Source: Effusibacillus pohliae DSM 22757 (GTDB taxonomy: Bacteria > Bacillota > Bacilli > Tumebacillales > Effusibacillaceae). Taken from it: 64,000 bases of DNA. Numbering within the stretch: position 1 is the stretch's first letter; each line of letters opens with the position of its first letter. The notes beneath the pieces were generated by a model. That model had not been told where the DNA came from. It worked only from the letters and a program-made list of their open reading frames with translations, and made no database searches. A program made the translations under genes and the position numbers. This document shows positions 48,101 through 52,365 of the stretch, one piece after another. The DNA is taken from the NCBI RefSeq assembly GCF_000376225.1, contig NZ_AQXL01000129.1:1-64000 (forward strand). Reading direction: 5' to 3'.

Positions 48101-48391
48101 ATGATTCAGATCAGCGACCTGGCGGTCGAGAAGATCAGGCAGATTCAACAGGAGCAGAATGAGGAGCACCTCTGCATCCGGATTAAGGTCGCTCCCGGAT
48201 GAGGCGGTTTTCGGTATTTGCTGGCTCTGGATGAGCCACAACCGCACGACCGGCAGTTTGAAGTGAAGGGGCTGCGGTTCGTCCTGGATCCGTTTGCCGC
48301 TTCCCACATCAGTCAGGTTGAGATCGAGTATGATGAATTCGAGGATGATTTTACGGTCCGCGTTCCGGATGGGCCGCAATCGTCCTGTTGA
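48101..48391 (+). CDS. HesB/IscA-like selenoprotein candidate 1 (Sec at codon 34, in-frame TGA)
   Basis: From ATG 48101 (ACGGAGGAGATGGC before it) the frame reads MIQISDLAVEKIRQIQQEQ, then LCIRIKVAPG, TGA at 48200-48202, GGFRYLLALDEPQ, and runs open for 62 more codons to TGA 48389, ending Ser-Ser-Cys. The whole is a 96-residue HesB/A-type protein. The TGA falls where the family has its conserved Cys (the GGCSGF-type motif), and the LALDEP motif marks the HesB-related (seleno)protein subgroup known from Bacillota. A SECIS-like stem-loop follows the TGA. The C-terminal CGC motif of true IscA is absent. Function unknown; redox or metal binding through Sec is inferred. A pseudogene is the alternative, made unlikely by a second case at 52057. 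Confidence 0.82.
48204..48245 (+). promoter_or_regulatory. Candidate SECIS element 1
   Basis: Directly after the TGA, GCGGTT pairs with AACCGC (48240-48245) and, inside, GGCTC pairs with GAGCC around the loop TGGAT. The loop starts 25 bases after the TGA and has G at its second position, as expected for bacterial SECIS elements recognised by SelB. Confidence 0.65.
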
Positions 48392-51974: not shown

Positions 51975-52056
51975 GTGCGACACCTCCGACGCTTGCATGG
52001 TTTTGTGATAGCTTGGGGACATTCAGGGATAGTTTATACATTGCGGGGTGAGCCTT

Positions 52057-52365
52057 GTGATCACATTGACGGAACGGGCGCGGGAAAAATTGGCCGAGTG
52101 GACGAGCGACGAACAGCCGGACGTGTATATACGGCTGATGATGGTGATGGAAGGCGGCTGAGGGGCGACGATGACGTACGATCTTGCTCTGGACGAGCCG
52201 AGAAAGCAGGATGACGTGTATTCGTTCGGCAATGTGCACGTACTGGTGGACAAATCGTCGCAAGTTTATATGGAGGAAAATCTGACGATCGATTATGACG
52301 AGTCGATCGGAGCGTATCGGTTGAAAAGCCCGGAACGGGTGATACCGGGCGTGTTTTATGTGTAG
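52057..52365 (+). CDS. HesB/IscA-like selenoprotein candidate 2 (Sec at codon 35, in-frame TGA)
   Basis: From GTG 52057 (GGGGTGAG before it) the frame reads ITLTERAREKLAEW, then YIRLMMVMEGG, TGA at 52159-52161, GATMTYDLALDEPRKQDD, and stays open to TAG 52363. The result is a 102-residue HesB-like protein. The TGA is in the same place as in the 48101 gene, before the shared LALDEP motif. The protein contains no cysteine, so the Sec would be its only strong metal or redox ligand. A stem-loop of the same shape follows. Without Sec insertion only a 34-residue stub would be made. A frame opening at ATG 52171 would give just the C-terminal part and has no ribosome site. Confidence 0.82.
52182..52203 (+). 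promoter_or_regulatory. Candidate SECIS element 2
   Basis: GCTC (52186-52189) pairs with GAGC (52195-52198) around the loop TGGAC; after one bulged C, TCTT pairs with GAGA. The loop starts 28 bases after the TGA and again has G at its second position. Confidence 0.6.

Follow-up and report, generated by a model that had tools for sequence, protein, structure and literature searches.

A cysteine-free HesB/IscA-type protein of Effusibacillus pohliae that probably carries selenocysteine at the first ligand-cysteine position

The window analysed here, a 64,000-nucleotide stretch of the Effusibacillus pohliae genome, contains two genes of the HesB/IscA kind with an in-frame TGA codon. We refer to the gene at 52057 as m-type and to the gene at 48101 as b-type. 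The relevant features, in window coordinates, are:

48101..48391, + strand: predicted b-type HesB selenoprotein gene, with an in-frame TGA at 48200-48202, a C-terminal Cys codon, and a second TGA that is the true stop
48222..48238, + strand: SECIS candidate of the b-type gene, UGGCUC[UGGAU]GAGCCA, with the loop 26 nt after the UGA
52045..52051, + strand: possible ribosome-binding stretch GGGGTGA, 5' of the GTG start, as read from the sequence
52057..52365, + strand: predicted m-type HesB-fold selenoprotein gene, with a GTG start at 52057 and a TAG stop at 52363-52365, encoding 102 amino acids including selenocysteine (Sec) 35
52159..52161, + strand: in-frame UGA, predicted to be Sec codon 35, at the first ligand-Cys position of IscA
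52183..52202, + strand: SECIS candidate of the 52057 gene, CUUGCUC[UGGAC]GAGCCGAG, with four pairs, a bulged C, and three pairs

The 52057 frame is open except for its single TGA, and its product has no Cys at all and the motif LALDEP 3' of the TGA. Coordinates and translation thus bear out what an earlier sequence-only reading had described, including a chemistry that would have to be that of one selenol. The match to PF01521 (Fe-S_biosyn [HesB]) spans the TGA (residues 2-96, E 8e-15), and its 55.4 bits exceed the Pfam gathering score of 26.3 bits. When aligned with sequences of solved structures, residue 35, encoded by the TGA, falls on the first conserved ligand Cys of Escherichia coli IscA; the TGA of the 48101 gene stands at the equivalent aligned place, again as had been claimed. 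The C-terminal CxC tail is absent from the 52057 product and from every m-type member, and the earlier judgement that the protein fits a three-Cys scaffold poorly is upheld.

A search for related loci with the single 52057 protein as query found none; an alignment-based search succeeded and located the relatives. Eleven of fourteen genomes of the order, whose members include Tumebacillus, have an intact m-type gene, the window's own genome included. The TGA is at the identical codon in all eleven (Cys there in 0/11), and the common signature is EGGU[SG]A...LALDEP. The orthologues in the ten other genomes are 31-64% identical to the 52057 product and have no further stop within the frame. In the closest pairs, dN/dS after the TGA is 0.04 (G012/G013) or 0.09 (G008/G010, G004/G008, and G004/G010), synonymous sites being saturated or nearly so in wider pairs. 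The sequence-only reading had proposed Sec coding and had named relaxed selection downstream of the TGA as evidence to the contrary; we find purifying selection there and retention of the TGA in ten other genomes, both in support of the proposal.

Gene order around the two genes is kept (mutY, b-type hesB, GntR, glycosyltransferase, small ORF, m-type hesB, and convergent fabI), and the gene neighbours, in the order and around the Cys-type and S-type relatives, gave no functional lead. The m-type gene is missing from its syntenic place in genome G001. Genome G002 (C85, L125 8902-9040) has a remnant conserved only to the TGA, after which follows unrelated, repeat-rich sequence with short repeats of the type AAAAATAGGACTGA; the SECIS hairpin is gone. 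The gene is therefore dispensable in the genus. These two cases are what can be said for regarding the TGA at 52159 as a real stop with a decaying frame behind it. They do not indicate m-type decay in the other eleven genomes, and the purifying selection after the TGA among these, together with the hairpin covariation described below, makes a pseudogene extremely improbable. A second, partial m-type copy in genome G007 (L119 6680-6875; G007:C1:2474692-2474871) comprises only the part after the TGA; the intact copy lies 19 kb from it, and the two are nearly identical.

The sequence-only reading had also considered that a lack of selenocysteine machinery would count against Sec. The E. pohliae genome (3.36 Mb, 99.85% complete) encodes SelB (402 bits), SelA (629), SelD (417), and tRNA-Sec (68.5), all above curated cut-offs. 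SelB is likewise above its cut-off in six relatives with TGA-bearing HesB genes; four genomes of the class have a Cys form as their best match, and of these, one has SelB above the cut-off and three do not. The selD gene (L138, G000:C135:60849-61778), which adjoins selA, itself has an in-frame TGA. Read-through of the UGA as a standard amino acid (Cys, Trp, or another) would explain the open frame, and nothing beyond that open frame speaks for it; with a full Sec machinery, a SECIS hairpin, and TGA serving as a normal stop in this genome, the stop of the 48101 gene itself included, we regard such read-through as very unlikely.

The SECIS candidate of the 52057 gene overlaps the LALDEP codons, its loop begins 29 nt past the UGA, and with the loop UGGAC we judge it to have the G in the first two loop positions that is typical of bacterial SECIS elements. 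In each of the 34 intact TGA-bearing HesB genes examined, which cover the m, b, b2, P, S, and A types, a potential loop starting TGGA begins 26 or 29 nt 3' of the UGA, in a hairpin of the type GGCUC[UGGAY]GAGCC whose stem (e.g. GGCTC/GAGCC) lies on the LALDEP codons. In these 34 genes, 5.82 of 7 stem pairs are Watson-Crick pairs, versus 3.00 under synonymous codon randomisation (local codon usage, 2000 draws, maximum 3.65). The m-type group alone has 5.82 pairs versus 3.13 expected (maximum 4.09). The bulged C in its stem keeps the 52057 hairpin by itself from being significant in this randomisation (p 0.32); single-sequence folding gives it a modest z of -1.1, and a longer stretch adopts a different fold. 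In the whole window, no RNA reached the Rfam gathering thresholds, and the case for a SECIS element thus rests on comparison.

That comparison includes covariation. Among 24 distinct sequences, 10 cells are changed on both sides of a pair, versus 2.9 in shuffles (0/500). One compensatory change, C-G to U-A, combines Ala to Val with Glu GAG to GAA and yields LVLDEP; another, G-C to A-U, combines Ala to Thr with Pro to Ser and yields LTLDES. The Cys homologues (n=18) have a mean of 2.2 pairs in the same register, and the hairpin is weak or absent in nearly all of them. One Cys-type A-carrier (L086, G007:C1:347508-347786) retains CTTGCGC[TGGAT]GTGCAAA, possibly a relic SECIS left after a change from Sec to Cys. 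The exact 13-mer GCTCTGGAYGAGC occurs twice in the 3.36-Mb genome, only in the 48101 and 52057 genes; since it is confined to these two genes and a conserved, covarying hairpin overlaps the codons, LALDEP would in part be an RNA signal. The LALDEP to which the sequence-only reading had pointed is indeed present in both genes, but the sharing reflects the SECIS hairpin as well as protein similarity. The genomic evidence makes it highly probable that 52057-52365 is a functional HesB/IscA (PF01521) selenoprotein gene with its UGA decoded as Sec. SelB and tRNA-Sec would decode the UGA at 52159, and insertion would be directed by the hairpin about 22-41 nt 3' of it, within the LALDEP codons.

The two genes had been described as paralogues. 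In a tree of 52 proteins, a branch with support 97/88 separates the b-type (with the A and P types) from the m-type, on whose side are also the S types and Cys relatives with the motif EGCGC; the tree requires six Sec/Cys changes, four of them forced by well supported branches, and its long branches leave details unsure. The genes are related, but being on opposite sides of the 97/88 branch they are old paralogues, members of different branches rather than close paralogues. A recent tandem duplication was considered and is rejected by the same branch, with the long-branch caveat.

The nearest Cys relatives occur outside the order, in other families of the class, and have the form EGCGCGAT...LNWD; the predicted m-type Sec replaces the second Cys of EGCGC. 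These relatives (L088, L090, L091, L094, and others) align with the m-type over the full length, share its C-terminal IxL end, and likewise lack a C-terminal CxC. They differ in having CGC versus GGU and mostly LNWD versus LALD, and in having no SECIS stem.

HesB-like selenoproteins have been known since surveys of 2005-2006 (PMC1794560, PMC1242214). A survey of 2007 did not recover the HesB family as a single cluster, its sequences being too short and diverged (PMC1914089), and Table 1 of a 2026 review gives the motif as UxGP (PMC13188914). Nothing relevant emerged from literature searches on selenoproteins of Effusibacillus or Tumebacillus. Like the members of TIGR01911 (HesB_rel_seleno), the 52057 product has a HesB/IscA-type domain with a predicted Sec at a conserved Cys; it differs in having EGGU[SG]A in place of UxGP and in lacking Cys, and it scores 17.3 bits, below the curated cut-off of 66.35. 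The best NCBIfam match is NF038090 (IscA_HesB_Se), over residues 1-82, at 49.1 bits; two other m-type members score 42-46 bits, and all three are below its cut-off of 85. As judged from these sequences, the m-type is a divergent, Cys-free subfamily of the known HesB-like selenoproteins that falls below both Sec-aware NCBIfam cut-offs. It adds to them a branch with a single predicted selenol, and because the curated models miss this branch, annotation may cut its genes short at the TGA.

Four of the five PF01521 genes in the E. pohliae genome have a TGA at the first Cys position. One of these further genes (L012, G000:C117:45722-45976) has the known UGGP motif. Only one classical A-type carrier was detected in the genome (L009, G000:C108:10857-11153), and its TGA stands at the first ligand Cys; it scores 130.5 bits with the ErpA model (cut-off 117) and has a C-terminal CGC and the hairpin GGCAC[UGGAUC]GUGCC. 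The same arrangement is present in G001 and G002 (L069 and L070). A Sec-containing ErpA would be notable, if true.

The AlphaFold model of the 52057 product has a mean pLDDT of 92, lowest around the Sec loop, and matches IscA (Z 11.7), SufA (10.6), the YneR-PDH E1 complex (10.2), and DsrR (10.1). With the A-type carriers IscA, SufA, and ErpA the protein shares the fold, and its Sec would occupy the Cys35 position; they have three conserved Cys (the first and the C-terminal CxC), whereas it has none. Sec35 would be the sole chalcogenol, in the loop that bears the first ligand Cys of IscA. In an oligomer, each subunit could contribute its Sec35 as a single ligand or nucleophile to iron or another soft metal; alternatively, Sec35 could undergo exchange with a partner thiol or persulfide.

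One possible, though not the probable, role is that of an iron or iron-sulfur carrier in which the Sec35 residues of two or four subunits ligate metal at the oligomer interface. The fold, the match of Sec35 to IscA Cys35, and the CGC at the Sec site in the nearest Cys relatives are consistent with such a carrier; the absence of Cys and of a C-terminal CxC, which leaves one selenol per subunit, argues against it and makes a classical three-ligand scaffold unlikely. By analogy, the protein might instead be a regulator that has no metal chemistry: it would bind a partner enzyme and tune it, and Sec35, on the loop that makes the contact, would act as a redox switch. DsrR and YneR/PdhI, which regulate other systems and have not been reported as selenoproteins, use the IscA fold outside Fe-S scaffolding, as the 52057 product might, and YneR/PdhI inhibits pyruvate dehydrogenase, in the published model by inserting the loop Tyr Y31 (PMC10090944). 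The Z scores to the YneR-PdhA model (10.2) and to DsrR (10.1) agree with a regulator, to which we give a similarly guarded credence; against it, the likelier YneR-like protein in this genome is the Cys gene L011 (our own identification, on a long branch), and the invariant Sec argues for selenol chemistry. A metal role may apply, although in DsrR and YneR/PdhI the fold acts without a cluster. Tentatively, we propose for the 52057 product a small metal or redox relay or a redox-sensitive regulator, the two options being about equal.

LALDEP appears to be a short motif of the protein that an RNA signal has shaped, with Ala/Val, Ala/Thr, and Pro/Ser changes that track base pairing. The m-type protein also offers a way to test what a single selenol can achieve in an IscA fold. 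It is conceivable, if short of probable, that this order has an IscA-fold lineage in which one Sec replaces the whole set of Cys ligands, a selenol-only metal or redox protein beside a Sec-using ErpA-type carrier; selenium chemistry would then be part of iron-sulfur assembly, or of the regulation of that assembly, in these bacteria.
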